Shown here: one piece after another, positions 13,105 through 24,294 of the stretch
Layout: each line of letters starts with the position of its first letter
Position numbering within the stretch: position 1 is the first letter of the stretch
DNA from: Candidatus Omnitrophota bacterium
GTDB lineage: Bacteria; Omnitrophota; Gorgyraeia; JABMRN01; RBG-13-46-9
NCBI GenBank assembly: GCA_020346285.1
Contig: CP070780.1
Coordinates: forward strand, 788,277 to 820,285
Direction of reading: 5' to 3'
Length of the DNA: 32,009 nucleotides
Program-made: the position numbers and the translations under genes
Notes under the pieces: generated by a model
Database searches by the model: none
What the model saw: only the letters and a program-made list of their open reading frames with translations
What the model was told of the DNA's origin: nothing

Positions 13105-13922
13105 CTAAAACGATAGCCATTTGCAATCAAAAAGGCGGAGTTTCAAAAACAACAACCGCTATAAACCTCTCCTCTTACCTTGCCCTTGAGAACAGAAAAA
13201 CCCTTCTTATAGACCTTGATCCACAGTCAAATGCCACAAGCGGTATCGGTATCGATAAACGCTCTGTCAAGTCCAGCATCTATAATGTATTACACGGACA
13301 TGCATCTTTAGAAAACATTATCAAGCCGACGCAAATAGATAATCTTAATATAGCCCCTTCCAGTCTTGATCTTACCGGCGCAGAGGTTGAGCTTGTAAAT
13401 ATTATGAGCAGAGAATATAGATTAAAAAAAGCTATAGAAATAATAAAGAATCAATATGACTTTATTTTTATTGATTGTCCACCTTCATTAGGGCTTTTAA
13501 CTATTAATGCACTTACTGCTTGTGATTCAGTTATTATACCGATTCAATGCGAATATTACGCATTAGAGGGATTATCTCAACTTGTAAATACTATAAATCT
13601 CGTCAAAGATAACTTAAATAACGCATTGAGAATCGAAGGCGTATTACTTGCCATGGCTGATTACAGGACTAATTTAACTAGAGAAGTTATAGAAGAGGTT
13701 AAAAAATTTTTTGGCGACAAGGTTTATAGAACGGTAATTCCCAGATCTATTAAATTAACAGAAGCGCCTGGATTTGGTAAACCAGTTGCATTGTATGACA
13801 AAAATTCGATAGGCGCGGAAGCATATTATAATCTGGCAAGAGAAGTCATAGGTGAATTTCCACAACCTATTGAAAATAAAGAAGTTAAGACATTTCGTTC
13901 CGAAACATCGGAACCCATTTAA
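13098..13922 (+). CDS. parA: ParA/Soj chromosome-partitioning ATPase
   Basis: A 274-aa deviant-Walker ATPase that binds DNA non-specifically and moves ParB-parS complexes to segregate replicated origins. The Walker A' motif is KGGVSKTT (residues 12-19) with signature lysine K12 and catalytic K17; the residue normally Gly at position 16 is Ser. LLIDLDPQSNAT (about 36-47) and FIFIDCPPSLG (Walker B region, about 123-133) follow. GTG 13098 is the only start giving the family N-terminus; there is no ribosome-binding site and the promoter predicts a leaderless message. parB is separated from it by a large surface-protein gene, which is unusual. Confidence 0.95.
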   Translation: METKTIAICNQKGGVSKTTTAINLSSYLALENRKTLLIDLDPQSNATSGIGIDKRSVKSSIYNVLHGHASLENIIKPTQIDNLNIAPSSLDLTGAEVELVNIMSREYRLKKAIEIIKNQYDFIFIDCPPSLGLLTINALTACDSVIIPIQCEYYALEGLSQLVNTINLVKDNLNNALRIEGVLLAMADYRTNLTREVIEEVKKFFGDKVYRTVIPRSIKLTEAPGFGKPVALYDKNSIGAEAYYNLAREVIGEFPQPIENKEVKTFRSETSEPI

Positions 13923-13935
13923 AGGAGGCATAATC

Positions 13936-15669
13936 ATGACAACACAAGTTAAGTTACTCAAGAATCTCTTTCTCATGGCAATAGCGGCACTGATTATAAT
14001 TCTTGCGCCGCCGTTGAACGTTATCGGAGAAGAAATCGTTACCCTCACCACTATTATGCCGAGCCAGGATACGCTAAGAGTAGAAAGAGGAGCCGTAGGC
14101 ACAAACTACAGACAGGTAGAGACCCTTACAGATGAAGACATAGGCGATGATAACCTGCTCATCGAAGGCAACGTCGGTATCGGCACGACGGAACCAAATA
14201 ATAAGCTGGAAGTAATTGCAAATAATGATTATAGCGCTTTTAAGGTAGAGCAAACAGGTACCGGGAGTATTGCCAGTTTTGACAGGTCAGGCGGGTGGAC
14301 AGTTTTTAGAATTAATAATGAGGGTGCCGTTACTATTCAAGCCGAGAATGCGGTGACTGACGGACTTACGATAAGTGATACGGATTTTACTAATGCCATT
14401 AATCTCGGAGGAAATAGAATCATTGGCACTACGAGTCTCTGGGATGGCGACGGTAATGTAGGCATCGGAACGACAACGCCGGAATTCAATCTTAGCCTTG
14501 CTGTTGATGGAGGAATAATTAGTACCGGAACTTTTGGTTCCGGAGCGACTTTAACTACTTCCGGAACGGGAGTAAGGATGTTTTGGTATCCCCGCAAGGG
14601 AGCATTTCGGGCAGGCCGTGCTTATTTGACTGAGTGGGATAACAGTATGATTGGCAATTATTCGGTAGCGATGGGCTCGAATACCCTTGCATATGGGAGT
14701 GGTTCCGTAGCGATGGGGGACGATAATGAGGCTTGGGGGAGTGGTTCCGTAGCGATGGGGTATGGTAGTCAGGCCATATCTTCGCGTTCCATAGCAATGG
14801 GGTATAGTTGCTATGCCAGGGGCGACGGTTCCGTAGCGATGGGGAACGATAATACTGCCGACGGCAGTGGTGCCGTAGCGTTGGGACGTCGTTGCGAGGC
14901 CACTGGCGACTATTCCGTAGCAATGGGGAATAATAGCGATGCCACCTCAACTGCTTGCGTAGCACTTGGATATAGCGCCGAATCCACCGGCTATTATTCA
15001 ATGGCTGCAGGCTTTCGAGCCAAGGCAGTAAATCCCGGTTGTTTTGTCTGGGCGGATTCTCAAAGCGCGGATTATTCATCAACCAACTCAAATCAATTCC
15101 GTATTCGCGCTGCAGGTGGAATTTTTCATGCCGGCACTTCTATTCATGATATCGCAGAATTTATGGATGTGCTGAAAGAGGACGATGTGCGGGAAGGACA
15201 GATTGTCTCATTGGCGCAAGATGATAAACTGGGAAAAAGTAAGGGAAATTATGATGAAAATCTTATTGGCGTGGTTAGCGGTGAGAGAACTACTACGTTG
15301 CATTTAGCTAATGAAAATGCCAGTTATGAAGATACCGTACGTCTTCCTATAGCTTTAGTGGGCAGGGTTTATGTAAAAGTGAATAATGAGTCAGGTCAGA
15401 TTAGGGTAGGCGATCCGATTACATCTTCATCGCAGCCCGGCATAGGCATGAAAGCAACCAGGACAGGGAAAATCATCGGCTATGCTATGGAAGAGATAGA
15501 TTTCAAAGAGAGCAGGCAAGATGAAATTCTGGTCTTTGTGAACACGGGTTATTATGTTTCAGGTGAGGATTGCGCAAAACTGGACAGGATTGGCAGATTA
15601 GAAAACGAGCTGGATGGCCTTCATAGCGAGATAGAGATATTGAAGGAAGCAATTGAGAAAAAAATTTGA
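13936..15669 (+). CDS. Secreted YadA-head/'NVGIGTT' repeat surface protein
   Basis: This 577-aa protein starts at ATG 13936 with AAAGGAGG 7 bases upstream; an earlier in-frame ATG lies inside parA and lacks that site. It has an N-terminal signal sequence (residues 7-31), then two NVGIGTTxP motifs (79-87 and 174-182) typical of tail-fibre-like and surface proteins. Nine 14-residue YadA-head repeats of the form SVAMGxxxxAxG follow (241-366), a left-handed beta-roll that trimerises. A C-terminal domain (about 400-545, DIAEFMDVL...GVVSGE...ALVGRVYVKV) and a short coiled coil (551-577) end it. There is no YadA beta-barrel anchor, so export or attachment must differ from classical trimeric autotransporters. 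It sits between parA and parB with normal spacing, and I infer an adhesin or surface fibre. Confidence 0.8.
   Translation: MTTQVKLLKNLFLMAIAALIIILAPPLNVIGEEIVTLTTIMPSQDTLRVERGAVGTNYRQVETLTDEDIGDDNLLIEGNVGIGTTEPNNKLEVIANNDYSAFKVEQTGTGSIASFDRSGGWTVFRINNEGAVTIQAENAVTDGLTISDTDFTNAINLGGNRIIGTTSLWDGDGNVGIGTTTPEFNLSLAVDGGIISTGTFGSGATLTTSGTGVRMFWYPRKGAFRAGRAYLTEWDNSMIGNYSVAMGSNTLAYGSGSVAMGDDNEAWGSGSVAMGYGSQAISSRSIAMGYSCYARGDGSVAMGNDNTADGSGAVALGRRCEATGDYSVAMGNNSDATSTACVALGYSAESTGYYSMAAGFRAKAVNPGCFVWADSQSADYSSTNSNQFRIRAAGGIFHAGTSIHDIAEFMDVLKEDDVREGQIVSLAQDDKLGKSKGNYDENLIGVVSGERTTTLHLANENASYEDTVRLPIALVGRVYVKVNNESGQIRVGDPITSSSQPGIGMKATRTGKIIGYAMEEIDFKESRQDEILVFVNTGYYVSGEDCAKLDRIGRLENELDGLHSEIEILKEAIEKKI
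14656..15033 (+). repeat. Nine tandem 42-bp repeats encoding YadA-head motifs
   Basis: Codons 241-366 of the surface-protein gene are nine units of exactly 14 codons, e.g. NYSVAMGSNTLAYG, SGSVAMGDDNEAWG and DGSVAMGNDNTADG. The DNA is also similar between units (recurrent TTCCGTAGCGATGGGG), so the number of units could change by recombination or slippage. Confidence 0.9.
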
Positions 15670-16612: not shown

Positions 16613-16627
16613 AAGAGTAAAATTTAA

Positions 16628-16661
16628 CCTTTTAAACCCGGTCCCGCGAGGCCGGAAAAGG
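16628..16661 (+). promoter_or_regulatory. PyrR-binding RNA hairpin overlapping a ribosome-binding site
   Basis: GGTCCCGCGAGGCC (16640-16653) fits the Bacillus PyrR recognition sequence ARUCCNGNGAGGYU except at its two end positions, which change together from A-U to G-C and so keep the pair. It caps a stem with CCGG/CCGG and, below a 4-base bulge, CCTTTT/AAAAGG (16628-16633 with 16656-16661). The AAAAGGAG Shine-Dalgarno sequence of the leader ORF (16656-16663) forms the 3' strand of the lower stem. PyrR binding in the presence of UMP would therefore hide that ribosome-binding site. Confidence 0.8.
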
Positions 16662-16668
16662 AGTAAAA

Positions 16669-16821
16669 ATGAAGCATATAAATATAAACCTACCTAAACT
16701 AAGAAGGGTAGGTTATTTTTTTAATGAGACCATAATTTACGGCAATCTATCAGATTGCCGTAAATTATATGGTCGAATTAATCCCGAGCAAAGCGAGGGA
16801 TCTCAGGAGGATCGAAAATGA
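16669..16821 (+). CDS. 50-codon leader ORF running through the pyr attenuator
   Basis: An ATG 5 bases after AAAAGGAG opens a 50-aa ORF ([18 protein letters not shown]...) whose stop overlaps the pyrR ATG (ATGA). It has no recognisable homology. It spans the terminator hairpin, whose T tract is read as Tyr-Phe-Phe, and a long second hairpin. A translating ribosome would prevent the terminator from forming, as in the E. coli pyrL leader. The coding value of the peptide itself is doubtful: its role is more likely the act of translation. No independent evidence of expression can be seen here. Confidence 0.55.
16687..16722 (+). terminator. Intrinsic terminator (attenuator) in the pyr leader
   Basis: AACCTACCT (16687-16695) pairs with GGGTAGGTT (16706-16714), nine pairs including one G-U, and is followed by A and seven T residues (16716-16722). 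It lies between the PyrR hairpin and pyrR, inside the leader ORF, and is in the right place to stop transcription when pyrimidines are plentiful. Confidence 0.8.
16728..16774. repeat. Long hairpin between the attenuator and pyrR
   Basis: AATTTACGGCAATCT (16734-16748) and AGATTGCCGTAAATT (16752-16766) are perfect 15-base complements with a 3-base loop. The stem is extended by GACCAT/ATGGTC (16728-16733 with 16769-16774) across a 2-base bulge, giving 21 pairs. No T tract follows. It may be a small palindromic repeat, an RNase III-type processing site or a further control structure. Confidence 0.75.
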
Positions 16822-17396
16822 CTTTTAAAGAAAAAGCCAGGATATTGGACGCGGAAGGCATAAAGAGAGCCGTAACGCGAATTTCACACGAGATACTGGA
16901 AAAGAATAAAGGCACGGAAGATTTGGTAATTATAGGGATAAGGAATAGGGGCGAGCACCTCGGCCATAGAGTCGCAGATTTTATAGAGAAGATTATAGGA
17001 AAGAAGGTCCCTTTCGGTATTTTAGATATTACTCTTTATAGAGATGACCTTACAGAAGTAGCCGAACAGCCGATCTTAAAAGAGACCCGTATAGACTTTG
17101 ATATAACCGGTAAAAAAATCGTCCTGGTAGACGATGTCCTGTTTACGGGCCGCACTATAAGGTGCGCCATGGATCAATTGATAGATTTTGGAAGGCCTAC
17201 CGTAATCCAGCTCGCAGTGCTTGTAGATAGGGGCCACCGGGAACTTCCGATAAGGGCGGATTACGTCGGCAAGAATGTGCCGACGGCGTTAAATGAGGTT
17301 ATAGAGGTAAAACTGAAGGAGTATGATGGTGTTGACGAAGTCGTTATATGCGAAAAATCCGGGGGGAAGGAGCAAGGCCTCCCCCAAAGGGGATAA
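16818..17396 (+). CDS. pyrR: PyrR bifunctional regulator/uracil phosphoribosyltransferase
   Basis: A 192-aa type I phosphoribosyltransferase-fold protein that in Bacillus binds pyr mRNA with UMP and also has weak uracil phosphoribosyltransferase activity. The PRPP loop is [14 protein letters not shown] (residues 101-114), and GIRNRGEHL (40-48) and [19 protein letters not shown] (about 136-154) are characteristic PyrR segments. AGGAGG lies 7 bases before the ATG. The last about 12 residues ([12 protein letters not shown]) lie beyond the normal end and are encoded by palindromic repeat-like DNA. The upstream hairpin matching the PyrR consensus supports autoregulation of the operon. Confidence 0.95.
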
Positions 17397-17397
17397 A

Positions 17398-18348
17398 GTG
17401 ACAGCCAAAAAGGCAGTTACATGGACAAAAAAAGACCTTTTAGGGCTGGAGTATTTAACTAAAGAGGAAATCGAGCTTATACTGGATAATGCAAGGTCTT
17501 TTAAAGAAGTGCTTGCAAGGCCGTTAAGAAAGGTCCCGACATTACGCGGGAAGACCATCGTTAATCTATTTTATGAACCCTCCACCAGGACCCGGACATC
17601 TTTTGAACTTGCCGCCAAGAGGCTTTCCGCCGATGTTATAAACATGGTAAAGGAATCTTCAAGCATACAGAAGGGAGAAACCCTTATCGATACGGCGAGA
17701 AACCTTGAGGCGCTTAAGATAGATATAATAGTCGTCAGGCACAACTGCTCCGGAGCGGCAATGATGTTGTCCCGGGCGGTTAATATAAGCGTTGTCAACG
17801 CCGGAGACGGCTGGCATGAACACCCAACGCAAGGGCTTCTGGATATCTTTACTTTAAGGGAAAAACTCGGGTCTATCAAAGGGCTAAACGTAGGTATCAT
17901 AGGCGATATAGCCCATTCGAGGGTAGCGCGTTCTAATATATGGGGTCTTACGAAATTGGGCGCAAACGTTACGGTCTGCGCTCCCAAAAAACTTATACCT
18001 GCCGGGATTGAGAAATTAGGCGTCAAGGTTACAAACGATGTTGACGAGGTAATAAAAAAAGCCGACGCAATCAATGTTCTCCGCATGCAGTTTGAAAGAG
18101 ACGAGAGCCGCGCGTTTCCTTCCAAGATAGAATATTTTAAGACCTTCGGCATAACAGAGGAGAGGCTCAAGAAGGCAAAAAAGGGTATAATCGTCATGCA
18201 CCCCGGCCCTATCAACAGAGGCGTTGAAATGTCGGCAGAGGTTGCGGATGGCGCCAACTCTGTTATATTGGAACAGGTTACAAACGGCATAGCGGTTCGG
18301 ATGGCGGTATTGTATCTGGTTTCGACCGCGAAAAGGCAGAAAAAATGA
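17398..18348 (+). CDS. pyrB: Aspartate carbamoyltransferase catalytic subunit
   Basis: PyrB joins carbamoyl phosphate and aspartate to carbamoyl aspartate, the committed step of pyrimidine synthesis. I choose GTG 17398, one base after the pyrR stop and just behind AAAGGGG; this gives 316 aa, close to the usual about 310. The ATG at 17323 would lie inside pyrR and add repeat-coded residues. The carbamoyl-phosphate motif STRTRTS is at 62-68, HPTQGLLDIF holds further active-site residues, and MHPGPINRGVEM contains the conserved loop near the C-terminus. No pyrI regulatory gene is nearby. The stop overlaps pyrC by 4 bases (ATGA). Confidence 0.95.
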   Translation: MTAKKAVTWTKKDLLGLEYLTKEEIELILDNARSFKEVLARPLRKVPTLRGKTIVNLFYEPSTRTRTSFELAAKRLSADVINMVKESSSIQKGETLIDTARNLEALKIDIIVVRHNCSGAAMMLSRAVNISVVNAGDGWHEHPTQGLLDIFTLREKLGSIKGLNVGIIGDIAHSRVARSNIWGLTKLGANVTVCAPKKLIPAGIEKLGVKVTNDVDEVIKKADAINVLRMQFERDESRAFPSKIEYFKTFGITEERLKKAKKGIIVMHPGPINRGVEMSAEVADGANSVILEQVTNGIAVRMAVLYLVSTAKRQKK

Positions 18349-19643
18349 TTATAAAGAACGGTTATATTATAGACCCGTCGAACAAAAAAGAGGGCGTATT
18401 TGACATATTGATAGAGGGGTCAAAAATCAAAGAGGTATCAAAAAGCATAAAAGCAAAAGATAAAGAGATTATTGACGCTAAAAAGAAAATAATAATCCCG
18501 GGCCTTATAGACATGCATGTCCATTTGAGGGAGCCGGGGAGAGAGGATATCGAGACGGTAAAATCCGGGACAGGCGCCGCAATCTCGGGCGGCATAACAA
18601 GCATATGTTCGATGCCCAATACACGGCTATCGATGGATAATATCGAGAATCTGGAGCTTCTAAAAAGCATTATAAAAAGAGACGCCGGGGCTTTTGTTTC
18701 TATCATAGGCGCTATTACAAAAGGCCGGGAAGGCAAAGAGATTGTGGATATGAAAATGATGAAAGAAAAGGGCGCCATTGCCTTATCGGACGACGGCAAT
18801 TCCATACAGGATGAGCGCGTTATGCTTGATGCCCTCAAGAAGGCAAAAGAGAATGGCCTTCTTTTAATATCCCACTGCGAAGATAAGACAATTTCAAAAA
18901 ATGGCGTTGTAAACGAAGGAATAGTGGCTACAAAATTGGGATTACGCGGCATATCTAAAAAGGCAGAATATGAATTCGTAGGCCGCGATATAGAACTTGC
19001 CCGAAAGACAAAAGCGAAACTCCATATAGCGCATGTAAGCTGCAAAGAGTCGGTAGATATGATAAGAAAAGCGAAGAAAGACGGCGTAAAAGTTAGCGCA
19101 GAAACCGGCCCGCAGTATTTCAGCCTGCGGGATGAATGTTGCGTTACCTATGATACGCGCACGAAGATGAACCCGCCTTTACGCTCGGCCGAAGACGTCG
19201 AGGCCATAAAAAAAGGCCTGACGGATGGAACGATTGATGCGATAGCTTCAGACCATGCCCCGCACGGGAAGCACGAAAAAGAGATAGAGTTCGACCTTGC
19301 GGCATTCGGCATTATAGGGCTTGAAACATCGCTGGCCCTGGCTATTATGAATCTCGTTGAAACAAAGCGGATTTCCTGGATGAGGCTGGTTGAGCTAATG
19401 TCGGCAAATCCGGCTAAAATTTTAGGCTTAAATCATAAAGGCAATTTGTCGCCGGGAAGCGATGCCGATATAACCATAATTGACCCGGAGAAAAAGTGGG
19501 TTTATACGAAAGATTCAATCCGGTCAAAAAGCAAAAACTCCCCCTTTATCGGCTGGCAGTTTAAAGGAAAAGTGACAGGCGTGATTGTCGGGGGAAGAAA
19601 TTCCCCTCACCTTAGTCCTCTCCCCAAAGGGGAGAGGAGATAA
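18345..19643 (+). CDS. pyrC: Dihydroorotase (class I)
   Basis: A 432-aa zinc amidohydrolase that cyclises carbamoyl aspartate to dihydroorotate. Metal ligands are visible: DMHVHLREPG (H58, H60), HCED (H177), HIAHVSC, and ASDHAPH with the catalytic Asp. LSDDGNS (148-154) is also a family motif. The catalytic part ends around residue 415 (FKGKVTGVIVGGR); the final 14 residues (NSPHLSPLPKGERR, 419-432) are the translation of a palindromic repeat element and replace the normal end. The stop codon TAA shares its last base with an ATG of the next gene. Confidence 0.95.
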   Translation: MIIKNGYIIDPSNKKEGVFDILIEGSKIKEVSKSIKAKDKEIIDAKKKIIIPGLIDMHVHLREPGREDIETVKSGTGAAISGGITSICSMPNTRLSMDNIENLELLKSIIKRDAGAFVSIIGAITKGREGKEIVDMKMMKEKGAIALSDDGNSIQDERVMLDALKKAKENGLLLISHCEDKTISKNGVVNEGIVATKLGLRGISKKAEYEFVGRDIELARKTKAKLHIAHVSCKESVDMIRKAKKDGVKVSAETGPQYFSLRDECCVTYDTRTKMNPPLRSAEDVEAIKKGLTDGTIDAIASDHAPHGKHEKEIEFDLAAFGIIGLETSLALAIMNLVETKRISWMRLVELMSANPAKILGLNHKGNLSPGSDADITIIDPEKKWVYTKDSIRSKSKNSPFIGWQFKGKVTGVIVGGRNSPHLSPLPKGERR

Positions 19644-19695
19644 TGAGGAAAGAGGAATTCCCTCTCCCCGTAGGGGAGAGGGTTAGGGTGAGGGG
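19603..19695. repeat. Large palindromic repeat spanning the pyrC end and next gene start
   Basis: A 23-base arm at 19603-19625 (CCCCTCACCTTAGTCCTCTC...) is complementary, with three mismatches, to 19673-19695 (GGGGAGAGGGTTAGGGTGAG...). Two further hairpins lie inside, built on CTCCCC-AAAG-GGGAG and CTCTCCCC-GTA-GGGGAGAG. It contains the pyrC stop codon and one candidate start of the next gene. This repeat type (CCCTCACCCTAACCCTCTCC-like) is widespread in environmental bacterial genomes. Confidence 0.85.
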
Positions 19696-19708
19696 GGATA
19701 GATTGGTT

Positions 19709-20155
19709 ATGAAGTTCATCTTAACTAAAGAATTAGGCCGCCTGGCCCGATGGCTACGCATTCTGGGATACGACGCTATTTATTATGATAAAGACGATAG
19801 GTCGCGCCTTGTCATGACAGCTTTGAGGGATAAAAGGGTTATTTTAACCCGCAGCTCCAGGATGTCGAAATTTACAGGCATAAGGATGTTATGCATAACC
19901 GAAGATGACGTTGAGAAACAATTAGCGCAGGTCGTAAAAGAGCTCGATTTAAACATAGAAGAAGATAAAACCTTTTTAAGATGCGTAGATTGCAATGAAT
20001 CTCTGGCTGTTATCAAGAAGAATGAGGTAAAGGATAAAGTTCCTCCCTATGTTTTTGAAACACAGAAGGAATTCAAGACGTGCCCCGTCTGTAATAAAAT
20101 ATTTTGGAAGGGAACACACTGGCAGCTGGTAAAGGAGTTTTTGAAATGTTTATAG
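19709..20155 (+). CDS. Mut7-C family RNase/PIN-like protein with zinc ribbon
   Basis: From ATG 19709 the protein is 148 aa and begins MKFILTKELGRLARWLRILGYDA, the typical start of Mut7-C (PF01927) proteins. Acidic residues in YYDKDD and LTRSSRM correspond to the PIN-like nuclease core. The C-terminal half has a zinc-ribbon pair CVDC (about residues 90-93) and CPVC (about 127-130). An alternative ATG at 19643 overlaps the pyrC stop but would add 22 residues coded by the palindromic repeat. Members are presumed RNases; substrates are largely unknown. It lies inside the pyr operon and its end overlaps the endonuclease Q gene by 10 bases. Confidence 0.85.
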   Translation: MKFILTKELGRLARWLRILGYDAIYYDKDDRSRLVMTALRDKRVILTRSSRMSKFTGIRMLCITEDDVEKQLAQVVKELDLNIEEDKTFLRCVDCNESLAVIKKNEVKDKVPPYVFETQKEFKTCPVCNKIFWKGTHWQLVKEFLKCL

Positions 20156-21375
20156 CCGATTTTCATATTCATTCAAAATACTCCCGCGCAACCAGCAAAG
20201 ACATGGATATCGAAAATCTTTCTAACTGGGCCGGCGTAAAGGGGATAAATCTCCTGGGCACAGCCGATTTTACCCACCCGGATTGGCTGAGGGAGTTAAA
20301 GAATAAACTGGAAAAGGCAGAATACGGTATCTACCGGCATAAAAACATATTTTATATGCTGACCTCGGAAGTATCGAACATCTATTTTAAAACCGGCAGG
20401 GTACGGAAGATTCATAATATTATTTTCGCGCCTTCATTTGAAATCGTAGATGAAATTAATAAATTTTTATCACAGCACGGCAATCTCTATTCGGACGGGA
20501 GGGCTATATTAAGGCTCGAGTCGGATAAGATGGTTAAAGGATTGGGTAAAATCTCAAAGGACATATTTGTAGTCCCCGCTCACGTCTGGACGCCTCATTT
20601 TAGCTTATTCGGCGCAAATTCCGGTTTTGACTCCATAGAGGAATGCTTCGACGATGTTACGGATAAAATATATTCTCTGGAAACGGGGCTTAGCTCCGAT
20701 CCAGCGATAAATTGGCGCTGGAGTGCCTTGGACAGATTTAGTTTAATGAGCAATTCCGATGCGCATAGCCCGTCTAAAATAGGAAGAGAGGCGAATGTTT
20801 TTAAAGAAAAATTCGGCTATAAAGAGCTTATAGAAATATTAAAGACAAAAGATAAAGAAAAATTTTTATACACGGTAGAATTCTTTCCCCAGGAAGGGAA
20901 GTATCACTGGGACGGCCATAGAAAATGTAACGCCAGGCTCGCGCCTTCGGAATCTAAAAATTTGAATTACACATGTCCGAAATGCGGAGCGAGAGTAACG
21001 GTAGGCGTTATGCACCGGGTAGAAAAACTCGGCGATAGAAACGAGGGATTTGCGTTAGAGGGCGCGCCGTCTTATAAAAATCTCGTCCCTTTAATCGAGA
21101 TAATAGCCTCGGCCTTGAACGTGGGCAGCCTTACACAGGTTGCGCAAAGAGAATATAATATGTTAATAAACAAGTTTGGAAGCGAGCTTAAGCTCCTATT
21201 GGAAACACCGGAAAAAATGATAGAAGACGAATGCCCGCCAAAGATTGCCACCGGCATATTGAATGTGAGGAGAGGGGCGCTTGAGATTATCCCCGGATAC
21301 GACGGCGTCTACGGCAAGGTAAATGTTTATAAGAGCGGAAAAGAAAAAAAGGAAAAACAGCTGGAACTGTTTTAG
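20146..21375 (+). CDS. Endonuclease Q-like DNA repair nuclease (PHP domain)
   Basis: A 409-aa PHP-type metallo-nuclease. The start ATG 20146 has AAAGGAG 8 bases upstream and immediately precedes ADFHIHSKYSRATS (PHP motif I). Other metal-site motifs are TADFTHPDWL, SEVSNIY, PAHVWTPHFS and SNSDAHSPS. A treble-clef-like element with Cys in HRKCNARLAPSE and CPKCG follows (about residues 258-285), then a helical C-terminal part. This architecture matches endonuclease Q, known in archaea and some bacteria to cut DNA 5' of deaminated bases (uracil, hypoxanthine) and abasic sites. The last residues, QLELF (405-409), match the beta-clamp binding consensus. It is embedded in the pyrimidine operon. Confidence 0.85.
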   Translation: MFIADFHIHSKYSRATSKDMDIENLSNWAGVKGINLLGTADFTHPDWLRELKNKLEKAEYGIYRHKNIFYMLTSEVSNIYFKTGRVRKIHNIIFAPSFEIVDEINKFLSQHGNLYSDGRAILRLESDKMVKGLGKISKDIFVVPAHVWTPHFSLFGANSGFDSIEECFDDVTDKIYSLETGLSSDPAINWRWSALDRFSLMSNSDAHSPSKIGREANVFKEKFGYKELIEILKTKDKEKFLYTVEFFPQEGKYHWDGHRKCNARLAPSESKNLNYTCPKCGARVTVGVMHRVEKLGDRNEGFALEGAPSYKNLVPLIEIIASALNVGSLTQVAQREYNMLINKFGSELKLLLETPEKMIEDECPPKIATGILNVRRGALEIIPGYDGVYGKVNVYKSGKEKKEKQLELF

Positions 21376-21378
21376 CGC

Positions 21379-22155
21379 ATGAAACAATTTAAAGCAAAAA
21401 TAATCTCGAACAAAAAAATAGCGCCCGGGCATTATATATTATCCTTTAAGGCGCCGAAAACAGCAAAAAATACAAAGCCGGGGCAATTCTTTAATATAAG
21501 AGTAAGCCAAACTTACGAACCCTTTTTAAGAAGACCCTTCAGCGCCCATAAAATCGCGCGGAATAAAATTGAAATTTTATACAAGGTTGTCGGGAAAGCA
21601 ACAGAGATTCTTTCTATGAAGAAAAAAGGCGATATATTAGATGTGCTTGGCCCGTTAGGCAACGGATTTGATTTAGAGACCGGAGTTTCCTCGGTCTTTT
21701 TAGTAGCCGGCGGCCATGGCGTCGCTCCGCTTTATGCCTTGGCGGAACAAATCATAAGGGGTAAATCGCGGGCCCTGATTTTCATCGGCGGCAAAACCAA
21801 AAAACACATTGTCAGCGATAAAGAGCTTAAAGAACTCGGCGCCAAAGTATATATCTCTACCGAAGATGGCTCAAAGGGTTATAAGGGCTTGATAACCGAC
21901 TTAGTTATCCGTCATTGTAAGGCCGCTTCGCGCCTCGCAATGACAACCATCTATGCCTGTGGCCCAAAACCGATGCTTAAGGAAGTGGCAAAACTCGCAA
22001 GACGCTATAAAATGCCGTGCCGGGTGTCTCTCGAAGAATATATGGCTTGCGGCATAGGGACATGCCTGGGTTGCGCCGTAAAGACACGGACAGGATTCAA
22101 GCTCGTCTGCAAGGACGGCCCGGTTTTTGACTCAAGGGAAATTATATGGACCTAA
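21379..22155 (+). CDS. pyrK: Dihydroorotate dehydrogenase electron-transfer subunit
   Basis: This 258-aa FAD and 2Fe-2S protein passes electrons from PyrD to NAD+ in class 1B dihydroorotate dehydrogenase. It has the FAD motif RRPFS (51-55), GPLGNGF (91-97), nucleotide-binding GGHGVAPL (111-118), CGPKPML (194-200), and cluster cysteines C224, C229, C232 and C244 in MACGIGTCLGC and LVCKDGP. Residues about 176-190 (VIRHCKAASRLAMTT) are the in-frame translation of a palindromic repeat placed in the variable loop before CGPKPM. It overlaps pyrD by 10 bases, as expected for stoichiometric partners. Confidence 0.93.
   Translation: MKQFKAKIISNKKIAPGHYILSFKAPKTAKNTKPGQFFNIRVSQTYEPFLRRPFSAHKIARNKIEILYKVVGKATEILSMKKKGDILDVLGPLGNGFDLETGVSSVFLVAGGHGVAPLYALAEQIIRGKSRALIFIGGKTKKHIVSDKELKELGAKVYISTEDGSKGYKGLITDLVIRHCKAASRLAMTTIYACGPKPMLKEVAKLARRYKMPCRVSLEEYMACGIGTCLGCAVKTRTGFKLVCKDGPVFDSREIIWT
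21911..21944. repeat. Palindromic repeat element inserted in frame within pyrK
   Basis: GTCATTGTAAGG (21911-21922) and CCTCGCAATGAC (21933-21944) form arms with two mismatches around CCGCTTCGCG. The right arm's complement, GTCATTGCGAGG, recurs exactly at 31801-31812 in an intergenic repeat, so this is a mobile or dispersed repeat read as protein. Confidence 0.8.
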
Positions 22156-23063
22156 AAATCAAAATTGGTAAATTAAAATTGGAAAATCCGGTAATATTAG
22201 CTTCCGGCACAGCCGGATTCGGTAAAGAAATGAAAGATTTTATCGATATAAATAAACTCGGAGCCATTGTTACCAAAACAATTACCCTGAACAAAAGAAA
22301 AGGGAACCCGCCCCCTCGCGTTATTGAGACGCCCGGCGGTTTATTGAATTCGATAGGGTTGGATAACGGCGGGCTTAAAGATTTTATGTTTGAAAAAATT
22401 TCTTTTCTTGAAAATCTAAAAATACCGGTAATTGTAAGCATAGCCGGGGATACCATAGATGAGTTTGTAGAGCTGGCAAGGGAACTTTCAAAAGCAAGAT
22501 GTATTCGGGCTATAGAAATAAATCTTTCATGCCCTAATATCCGGCACAAGAATACGAAATTTCCGCTTTTGGCCCAGGATAGAAGGGCCGTAGAGAAAAT
22601 AATTTCGAGATTGCGAAAAACAACAACGAACACATTGATAGCAAAACTTTCGCCTAATGTGGCTGACATAAAAGAAATCGCGAAGGCCGCTGAACACGCG
22701 GGCGCGGATGCCATATCTTTAATAAATACGTATCCGGGCATGCTCGTAGATATTAATACTATGAAACCGAAATTAGGCGGGGTAACAGGGGGCTTAAGCG
22801 GCCCGTCCGTGAAACCGTTAGCTTTAAAATGTGTCCGGGATGCGTATAACGCCGTTAACATACCTGTTATAGGCATGGGCGGTATTATGGATGCGCGGGA
22901 CGCCGTCGAATTTTTTATATGCGGCGCAAGCGCGATTCAAATAGGAACCGCGAATTTTGTAAATCCCGGCGTCTCTTTGGAGATTTTAGAGGGTATAAAA
23001 GAATATTTGAAAAAGAAAAAAATAAAAGCAATTAAAAATTTAATAGGAAAATTAAAGATATGA
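22146..23063 (+). CDS. pyrD: Dihydroorotate dehydrogenase B catalytic subunit
   Basis: A 305-aa FMN TIM-barrel enzyme that oxidises dihydroorotate to orotate in the cytosol. NPVILASGTAGFG (14-26) and VTKTITL (42-48, K44) are FMN and substrate contacts. The catalytic base is Cys in EINLSCPN (C129), the mark of class 1 enzymes, rather than the Ser of membrane class 2. INTYPGM, GGLSGP and GMGGI (phosphate-binding) follow in order. With pyrK directly upstream it forms the NAD-linked 1B type. The stop overlaps pyrF by 4 bases. Confidence 0.96.
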   Translation: MDLKIKIGKLKLENPVILASGTAGFGKEMKDFIDINKLGAIVTKTITLNKRKGNPPPRVIETPGGLLNSIGLDNGGLKDFMFEKISFLENLKIPVIVSIAGDTIDEFVELARELSKARCIRAIEINLSCPNIRHKNTKFPLLAQDRRAVEKIISRLRKTTTNTLIAKLSPNVADIKEIAKAAEHAGADAISLINTYPGMLVDINTMKPKLGGVTGGLSGPSVKPLALKCVRDAYNAVNIPVIGMGGIMDARDAVEFFICGASAIQIGTANFVNPGVSLEILEGIKEYLKKKKIKAIKNLIGKLKI

Positions 23064-23722
23064 GAAACAGGCTTATCGTCGCGCTTGACGTAAATTCTTT
23101 TGATAAAGCGAAAAAGCTTGTCGACAAATTATCGCCGTATGTAAATATATTCAAGGTAGGAAGCCGGCTTTTTACGGTTTGCGGCCCCAAAATAATAAAT
23201 TATATAAATAAAAAAAGAAAAAAAACATTTCTTGACCTTAAATTTTTCGATATACCCAATACGGTAGAGGGGGCTGTCCGGGCAGCGGCGAAATACGGGG
23301 TATTCATGACAACGCTTCATATTTCCGGCGGATTCGATATGTTAAAAAAAGCGGCCGGCGCCTTAAAAGGCAAAAAGAAAAAGCCGTTACTTGTCGGGGT
23401 TACGGTTTTGACGAGCAAAGCAGGCAAAGATATCGCGAAAGAAGTAATAAAGCTTGCGCTAATAGCGAAAAAAGCGAAACTTGACGGCGTTGTATGCTCG
23501 CCAAAGGAAACAAGGCAGGTTAAAAGAGCTTGCGGGAACAAATTTATCGTCGTAAATCCCGGCATCAGGCCTTTATGGGCGATGAGGGGCGATCAAAGGC
23601 GGGTTACCACGCCCGAAAAAGCAATAGAAAACGGCGCGGACTTTATCGTCGTCGGCAGGCCTATAATAAAAGCGAAATACCCTTCGCTGGCGGCTCAAAA
23701 GATATTAGAGGAAATGGTATGA
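23060..23722 (+). CDS. pyrF: Orotidine 5'-phosphate decarboxylase
   Basis: A 220-aa TIM-barrel decarboxylase that converts OMP to UMP, the last step of the pathway. The catalytic DxKxxD motif is in FLDLKFFDIPNT (D59, K61, D64). IVALDVNSFDKA at the start and VVNPGIRP with VVGRPII near the C-terminus complete the phosphate-binding loops of group I enzymes. The gene starts inside the pyrD stop and its own stop lies inside the pyrE start (ATGA). It is somewhat short but all key motifs are present. Confidence 0.95.
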   Translation: MRNRLIVALDVNSFDKAKKLVDKLSPYVNIFKVGSRLFTVCGPKIINYINKKRKKTFLDLKFFDIPNTVEGAVRAAAKYGVFMTTLHISGGFDMLKKAAGALKGKKKKPLLVGVTVLTSKAGKDIAKEVIKLALIAKKAKLDGVVCSPKETRQVKRACGNKFIVVNPGIRPLWAMRGDQRRVTTPEKAIENGADFIVVGRPIIKAKYPSLAAQKILEEMV

Positions 23723-24294
23723 CGGATAAACAAATTTTAGAAATTTTCGGGAAAACAGGCGCCTTTCTCAAAGGCCATTTCAAGCTTTCCAGCGGGCTTC
23801 ATAGCGCGCAGTATCTCCAGTGCGCACGCGTTTTGCAGCACCCGCAGCACGCCGAAAAACTTTGTAAGGCACTTGCTGAAAAATTCAAAAAAACCGGGCC
23901 CGATATTGTCATAGCGCCTGCTTTAGGCGGTATTTTAGTTTCATATGAGGTTGCGCGGGCGCTTGGGGTAAAAAGCCTTTTTATGGAAAGGGTGAACGGT
24001 AAGATGGCGCTGCGACGGGGCTTCGAAATAAGCAAAAATGATAAAGTTCTTATCGTAGAAGATGTGATTACTACGGGGCTTTCTACTAAAGAAGTTATAG
24101 AAGCGGTAAAATCTTTCACTTCGGCTATCGTCGGCGTCGGATGCCTTGTTGACCGTTCGGGCGGTAAGGTCGATTTTGACATGCCATTTAAAAGCCTCTT
24201 TAACTTAGATATGCCTACCTTTAAACCTGAAAATTGCCCTCTGTGCAAAGATAAAATTCCCCTTACGAAGCCCGGCTCAAGGCTTCCTTCTTGA
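23719..24294 (+). CDS. pyrE: Orotate phosphoribosyltransferase
   Basis: PyrE attaches orotate to PRPP to make OMP. ATG 23719 overlaps the pyrF stop and gives a 191-aa protein beginning MTDKQILEIFGKTGAFLKGHF, the family-typical start; longer readings would run into pyrF. The PRPP motif is VLIVEDVITTGLST (about residues 109-122), and GHFKLSSGLHSAQYLQC holds the N-terminal substrate loop. The C-terminal CPLCKDKIPLTKPGSR is typical of the long bacterial subgroup. It is the last pyr gene; the -35 box of the ATPase promoter overlaps its stop codon. Confidence 0.95.
   Translation: MTDKQILEIFGKTGAFLKGHFKLSSGLHSAQYLQCARVLQHPQHAEKLCKALAEKFKKTGPDIVIAPALGGILVSYEVARALGVKSLFMERVNGKMALRRGFEISKNDKVLIVEDVITTGLSTKEVIEAVKSFTSAIVGVGCLVDRSGGKVDFDMPFKSLFNLDMPTFKPENCPLCKDKIPLTKPGSRLPS

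Follow-up and report, generated by a model that had tools for sequence, protein, structure and literature searches.

Endonuclease Q and an altered Mut7-C protein are encoded within the pyrimidine operon of Candidatus Omnitrophota

A nine-gene pyrimidine block with two additional genes

The stretch of DNA that we analysed (the window; 32,009 nucleotides of a Candidatus Omnitrophota genome, contig CP070780.1) carries a plus-strand run of nine genes in the order pyrR, pyrB, pyrC, mut7, endoQ, pyrK, pyrD, pyrF and pyrE. The run opens with pyrR (16818–17396), encoding the pyr operon attenuation regulator/uracil phosphoribosyltransferase (NF003549, 249 bits against a cut-off of 138). It is followed by pyrB for aspartate carbamoyltransferase (17323–18348; NF002032, 412 bits, cut-off 263), for which the start codon is uncertain and homology runs from around 17431 onward, and by pyrC for dihydroorotase (18345–19643; TIGR00857, 415 bits, cut-off 279). 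At the distal end lie pyrK for the electron-transfer subunit of dihydroorotate dehydrogenase (21379–22155; PF10418 and NF000798, 221 bits, cut-off 219), pyrD for its catalytic subunit (22146–23063; NF005574, 383 bits, cut-off 269), pyrF for OMP decarboxylase (23060–23722; NF001273, 258 bits, cut-off 193) and pyrE for orotate phosphoribosyltransferase (23719–24294, with the start taken from the sequence; TIGR01367, 239 bits, cut-off 150). Between pyrC and pyrK, as an earlier note on this DNA had read them, two further genes lie on the operon strand, one for a Mut7-C protein of 148 amino acids (mut7, 19709–20155) and one for an endonuclease Q (EndoQ) homologue of 409 amino acids (endoQ, 20146–21375).

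The earlier note had also described both genes as translationally linked to their neighbours. Linkage holds for mut7 and endoQ, which overlap by 10 nt (the endoQ ATG is at 20146 and the mut7 stop ends at 20155), with an AAGGAG Shine–Dalgarno-like sequence for endoQ inside mut7 (20132–20137, plus strand), and for endoQ and pyrK, which are 3 nt apart, but not for pyrC and mut7, which are separated by 65 nt. In the window genome this last gap is mostly repeat-derived; in a genome of the same genus (G001), pyrC joins mut7 directly and the repeat is absent. Among relatives, tight spacing (a start/stop overlap or a gap of at most 30 nt) was found in 48 of 70 pyrC–endoQ pairs and 19 of 30 mut7–endoQ pairs. 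From this spacing we infer that endoQ is co-transcribed with the pyr genes.

The repeat between pyrC and mut7 (19604–19700) is GC-rich and palindromic (CCCTCACC..CTCTCCCC / GGGGAGAGGG..), contributes the last codons of pyrC and has 48 matches, mostly partial, in the 1.43-Mb genome; a similar fragment lies at the pyrR–pyrB junction (around 17365–17395). Upstream of the block, positions 13852–15669 encode a secreted-looking protein of 605 amino acids; it resembles a YadA-type head, and its gene contains a 42-bp repeat in six copies (GSVAMG.. motifs).

A probable PyrR attenuator in the operon leader

The operon is headed, at 16624–16722 on the plus strand, by a probable PyrR-binding attenuator with an intrinsic terminator, recognised from an RF00515 match, a loop and a hairpin. 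No PyrR element was found at the Rfam gathering threshold; the match emerges only in a low-threshold search, at 49.4 bits (E = 1.5e-5) against a gathering score of 54. The leader contains the PyrR loop TCCCGCGAGGC, and its terminator consists of a CCTACC/GGTAGG stem followed by the T-rich TTATTTTTTT. A simple and crude form of the loop motif was present in 35 of 92 leaders (38%), compared with 0.8% of control windows. The operon is thus probably under PyrR attenuation. PyrR favours termination when UMP is high, so with such an attenuator EndoQ would be expected to increase as UMP falls. Between the PyrR-like terminator and pyrR there is also a near-perfect inverted repeat of around 20 bp (16729–16775; ACCATAATTTACGGCAATC...GATTGCCGTAAATTATATGGT, −24 kcal/mol), which matched no Rfam family.

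The EndoQ homologue retains both domains and a predicted clamp motif

Endonuclease Q is a DNA-cutting enzyme that acts at damaged, deaminated bases. The window protein, which has no Pfam match, aligns with the Pyrococcus furiosus enzyme PfuEndoQ (5zb8) across both domains (phmmer, E = 1.5e-52, residues 4–396) at around 33% identity. Its predicted structure superimposes on 5zb8 (Foldseek, E = 6.8e-40, TM-score 0.86) and on the dU-DNA complex 7k30 (TM-score 0.83). Eleven residues (H7, H9, D41, E75, H90, H146, D205, H207, C261, C277 and C280) are invariant across 16 aligned sequences that include PfuEndoQ, and from what is known of the PHP fold we take these to be PHP-type metal residues and zinc cysteines. 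The first zinc ligand of the window protein is probably His258, where PfuEndoQ has a cysteine.

Against the NCBIfam model TIGR00375 the protein gives E = 2.8e-58 but only 198 bits, below the curated cut-off of 326.6, which is passed in just 1 of the 59 genomes of our class sample. This low score could be taken to mean that the substrate of this EndoQ branch is no longer deaminated DNA but something else, such as nucleotides or RNA, and the fold matches do show phosphoesterases and RNase AM among the PHP-domain proteins. We consider such a change of substrate highly improbable, given that both domains, the zinc cysteines and every residue invariant with PfuEndoQ are kept and that the model can be aligned with the dU-DNA complex.

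The last five residues of the protein are QLELF (codons at 21358–21372, plus strand), a predicted sliding-clamp-binding motif, and a similar ending is present in 94 of the 104 pyr-linked EndoQs with a readable C terminus. The equivalent motif of Thermococcales EndoQ mediates its binding to PCNA and its stimulation by PCNA, and bacterial EndoQs have likewise been noted to carry clamp motifs (PMC4858679). No fusion of EndoQ to PyrC or to Mut7-C was found. In three relatives the gene carries an intein-like in-frame insert (L081 6054–8393, minus strand; L082 1759–4089; L085 8487–10808, minus strand). As measured in L081 and L082, the insert is around 361–363 amino acids long, splits EndoQ at a conserved ETGLS/SDPAMNW site and has intein-like ends, with Cys at the start and GN at the end; the entry junction in L085 is the same.

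EndoQ is linked to the pyrimidine operon across the class

The earlier note had proposed a survey of gene neighbourhoods in relatives, where unrelated locations for these genes would have spoken against its reading. We found instead that the linkage is class-wide. Among the 59 class-sample genomes, 48 encode EndoQ, and in 44 of these 48 the gene lies within the pyr operon (the exceptions are G008, G014, G028 and G036). In a wider set of Omnitrophota EndoQ loci, 108 of 147 are pyr-linked, mostly with endoQ directly 3' of pyrC or mut7. A tree of 205 EndoQs places every pyr-linked protein in a single clade of 123 tips, 116 of which are pyr-linked, with five label changes; pyr-linked EndoQ thus has a single origin and has been inherited across the class. 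Pyr linkage was found at none of the named loci from phyla other than Candidatus Omnitrophota, and the pyr-linked records under other titles (for example L226) come from metagenome bins and may be labelled with out-of-date titles.

A single origin is also what would be seen if endoQ had joined the operon once in the ancestor of the class and been kept by descent for no functional reason, and unrelated neighbours do persist: a V-type ATPase subunit gene is found 3' of pyrE in 17 of 37 loci, so adjacency by itself is no proof of function. Gene order around the operon nevertheless decays, with parB kept directly upstream of pyrR in only 3 of 75 loci, and the interval between pyrC and pyrK turns over freely among relatives, yet endoQ keeps its tight place after pyrC or mut7. 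We therefore regard inertia of gene order as an improbable account; set against the parB–pyrR control, linkage in 44 of 48 genomes shows that the arrangement is more than chance.

Other EndoQ neighbourhoods were also recorded. In other Omnitrophota classes EndoQ at first seemed to stand beside dihydroorotase, a reading that we rejected: the neighbour is amidohydrolase-like, scores only 51–98 bits against the pyrC model and mostly has an exported-looking N terminus. Long EndoQ open frames of 1,004–1,138 amino acids occur outside the pyr operon (L175, L178, L179, L180, L181, L191, L192; L265, L275, L276), and the three that we read whole (L175, L180 and L191) are fusions to a UvrD-type helicase, named from sequence. 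A DUF763 protein adjoins EndoQ in one Omnitrophota pyr operon (L052 10792–11889, minus strand) and, independently, in Thermodesulfobacteriota (L249). Patescibacteria often encode EndoQ close to a PolX-like DNA polymerase (named from sequence), with no pyr genes nearby (L214, L219, L234, L248, L255, L264, L268).

Operon partners and the distribution of uracil-DNA glycosylase

The endoQ–pyrK interval of relatives holds genes for CarA, CarB, a flavodoxin-like protein, LOG-family and YjbQ proteins and the DNA glycosylase Fpg. Across the 108 pyr-linked loci, Fpg is encoded in 45 (of the 51 Fpg open reading frames found, 49 keep the PELPEVE motif at the N terminus), LOG-family proteins in 37, flavodoxin in 23, YjbQ in 22 and dCTP deaminase in 3. 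Of these, Fpg and dCTP deaminase are in line with base damage as a common theme; the genes for flavodoxin and LOG-family proteins fall outside it.

Across 193 genomes of the phylum, 62 encode both EndoQ and uracil-DNA glycosylase (UDG), 67 EndoQ alone, 55 UDG alone and 9 neither (Fisher P = 1.8e-7, uncorrected for descent). Counted by family, all 14 families without a majority of UDG have EndoQ (P = 0.025), a figure biased by the nine genomes with neither enzyme being unassigned to families. Within the 59-genome class sample the trend was not significant (P = 0.10). That UDG and EndoQ tend to stand in for one another within the phylum supports a uracil-repair role for EndoQ. The window genome itself encodes both UDG and dUTPase, so EndoQ is not its sole uracil defence, and we discarded the idea that EndoQ is a plain UDG substitute there.

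These observations bear on the earlier suggestion that co-expression with UMP synthesis matches repair capacity to the pyrimidine pool. The uracil role survives, favoured by the exchange between UDG and EndoQ and by the co-operonic dCTP deaminase and Fpg genes; a simple match to the pool does not, because the probable PyrR attenuator predicts that EndoQ rises as UMP falls.

They bear equally on a less specific account, in which the pyr operon is simply a well-expressed, growth-linked transcript and EndoQ carries out repair with no particular tie to uracil or pyrimidines, sharing its reason for being there with Fpg, LOG-family, flavodoxin and YjbQ genes. That the operon hosts LOG-family, flavodoxin and YjbQ genes, which have no obvious pyrimidine link, is in keeping with such growth-rate coupling, as are the V-ATPase subunit gene after pyrE and the Patescibacteria loci described above. 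However, the pyrC–endoQ linkage is much more stable than that of the LOG-family, flavodoxin and YjbQ partners, and both the distribution of dCTP deaminase and that of UDG point to uracil. Growth-rate coupling as the whole story is therefore a genuine possibility, if a rather unlikely one.

The operon Mut7-C proteins form an altered branch

The window Mut7-C protein matches PF01927 over profile positions 1–145 of 146 (152 bits, cut-off 23.3; E = 1.5e-44). A sequence search gave no convincing solved structure; the predicted model (pLDDT 86) has as its best PDB fold match the C-terminal domain of C. elegans MUT-7 (8q66, TM-score 0.51). Mut7-C scored above the cut-off in 18 class-sample genomes, and 17 of these 18 genes sit in the pyrC–endoQ slot. 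The remaining one (in G018; L097 9346–10116) keeps the conserved aspartate discussed below and has a longer N-terminal part, which is probably a Ub-like domain.

We compared 36 operon Mut7-C proteins with a set of 22 from Omnitrophota and other phyla. The operon proteins group together on a single branch (support 0.87) and are set apart at two positions. An aspartate conserved in 21 of the 22 comparison proteins is replaced in all 36 operon copies, by Thr in 32, Ser in 3 and Asn in 1, and two positions later all 36 have Glu where 20 of the 22 have Met (T6 and Glu8 in the window protein). The zinc-binding cysteines C92, C95, C125 and C128 are kept in all 36, D22, R43, T47 and R48 are also retained, and the aspartate of the TRD motif varies in both sets alike. 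Charge and pI do not differ between the operon proteins and the comparison set.

The earlier note had suggested that the protein might act as an RNase that returns nucleotides. A working RNase with a rearranged active site, used in trimming or recycling RNA, would agree with the Pfam family name, with the report of PIN-like catalytic residues in Mut7-C (PMC1779556) and with the continued conservation of D22, R43, T47 and R48. It is difficult to reconcile with the loss of the aspartate in 36 of 36 operon proteins; moreover, the Mut7-C domain of animal MUT-7 is reported to bind RNA and aid a partner nuclease, with no cleavage of its own reported (PMC11347159), and the literature we examined shows no nuclease activity for a stand-alone Mut7-C protein. 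We thus consider the RNase reading very improbable: the operon protein is probably not an RNase. Aspartate loss and the likeness to the MUT-7 domain favour a nucleic-acid-binding helper instead, and Mut7-C may be such an accessory of EndoQ.

Consistent with an association, Mut7-C distances follow those of EndoQ most closely (Mantel r = 0.48, against 0.36 for pyrC and 0.22 for pyrB). The gene is patchy: its distribution over the EndoQ tree takes 27 changes, where shuffled labels take 32.7 on average and 28 at the least, so EndoQ does without Mut7-C in most genomes.

A model for EndoQ in the pyrimidine operon

The position of endoQ amid the genes of UMP synthesis across the class means that DNA repair and pyrimidine supply are seemingly co-expressed. 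We propose that EndoQ is a stable, inherited member of the pyr operon in the Omnitrophota lineage, joined in around one-third of genomes by an accessory Mut7-C protein. Transcription would begin upstream of pyrR, and the PyrR–UMP attenuator would allow the operon, EndoQ included, to be made when UMP is low, as when cells grow fast or are short of pyrimidines. Tethered to the sliding clamp by the QLELF motif at its C terminus, EndoQ would nick DNA on the 5' side of uracil, hypoxanthine, xanthine or abasic sites, a repair route that would overlap that of UDG and stand in for it in many lineages. Mut7-C, in which the conserved acidic residue is gone but the zinc site and basic character remain, would be translated in step with EndoQ and serve as its nucleic-acid-binding helper. 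Taken whole, this explanation of a stably inherited, clamp-tethered EndoQ controlled by PyrR and UMP and assisted by Mut7-C seems to us evenly poised between right and wrong.

A bolder version, which we offer as a speculation that is unlikely to hold in full, is that the altered Mut7-C joins EndoQ in a repair complex of two parts. The former nuclease would be the nucleic-acid-sensing or loading subunit, and UMP, acting through PyrR attenuation, would determine how much of the complex is made. If true, this would be a direct regulatory tie between pyrimidine supply and the repair of uracil in DNA, and in relatives of oxidised bases too.

Relation to known systems

The protein families involved are known. 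In the papers searched we found no description of their arrangement, of its class-wide single origin, of the probable PyrR control or of the altered Mut7-C branch; nor did we find any report that brings EndoQ together with dihydroorotase or that relates to the Omnitrophota pyrimidine operon. The impression given earlier, that the combination was undescribed, thus agrees with our search. Bacterial EndoQ has been described as confined to a few genera (PMC4357722). Its being common in an uncultured phylum, and fixed there in a central metabolic operon, gives the enzyme a physiological setting and a predicted timing of expression. The Mut7-C branch, with a presumed loss of nuclease function that can be tested, could reveal what stand-alone Mut7-C proteins do.

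With the characterised enzymes PfuEndoQ (PF1551), TkoEndoQ and Bacillus pumilus EndoQ, the Omnitrophota protein shares full-length homology, the PHP-type metal residues, the zinc cysteines and the C-terminal clamp motif; unlike them, it is encoded within a pyr operon, often beside Mut7-C, and falls under the TIGR00375 cut-off. The EndoQ–UvrD helicase fusions, found in other Omnitrophota and matched in length by open frames in other phyla, contain the same EndoQ domain but are single proteins of at least 1,000 amino acids encoded outside pyr operons. The operon Mut7-C proteins have the Cys4 zinc site and the RCxxCN and WxGxH motifs in common with the rest of the PF01927 family (stand-alone archaeal and bacterial proteins, Ub-like/Mut7-C fusions and the C-terminal domain of MUT-7/EXD3), from which they differ in forming a separate, EndoQ-tied branch with Asp changed to Thr, Ser or Asn and Met to Glu. 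In Halobacteria, Mut7-C adjoins PolX (PMC9226535), likewise placing a DNA-repair enzyme gene beside Mut7-C; that neighbourhood is archaeal, involves a different repair enzyme and has not been reported to include pyrimidine genes. Finally, the operon resembles the Bacillus-type pyr operons controlled by PyrR in having pyrR first, a probable PyrR-like leader attenuator and the pyrB-C-K-D-F-E order, whereas Omnitrophota add mut7 and endoQ, and in relatives also fpg and dcd, and have carA and carB only in some genomes.
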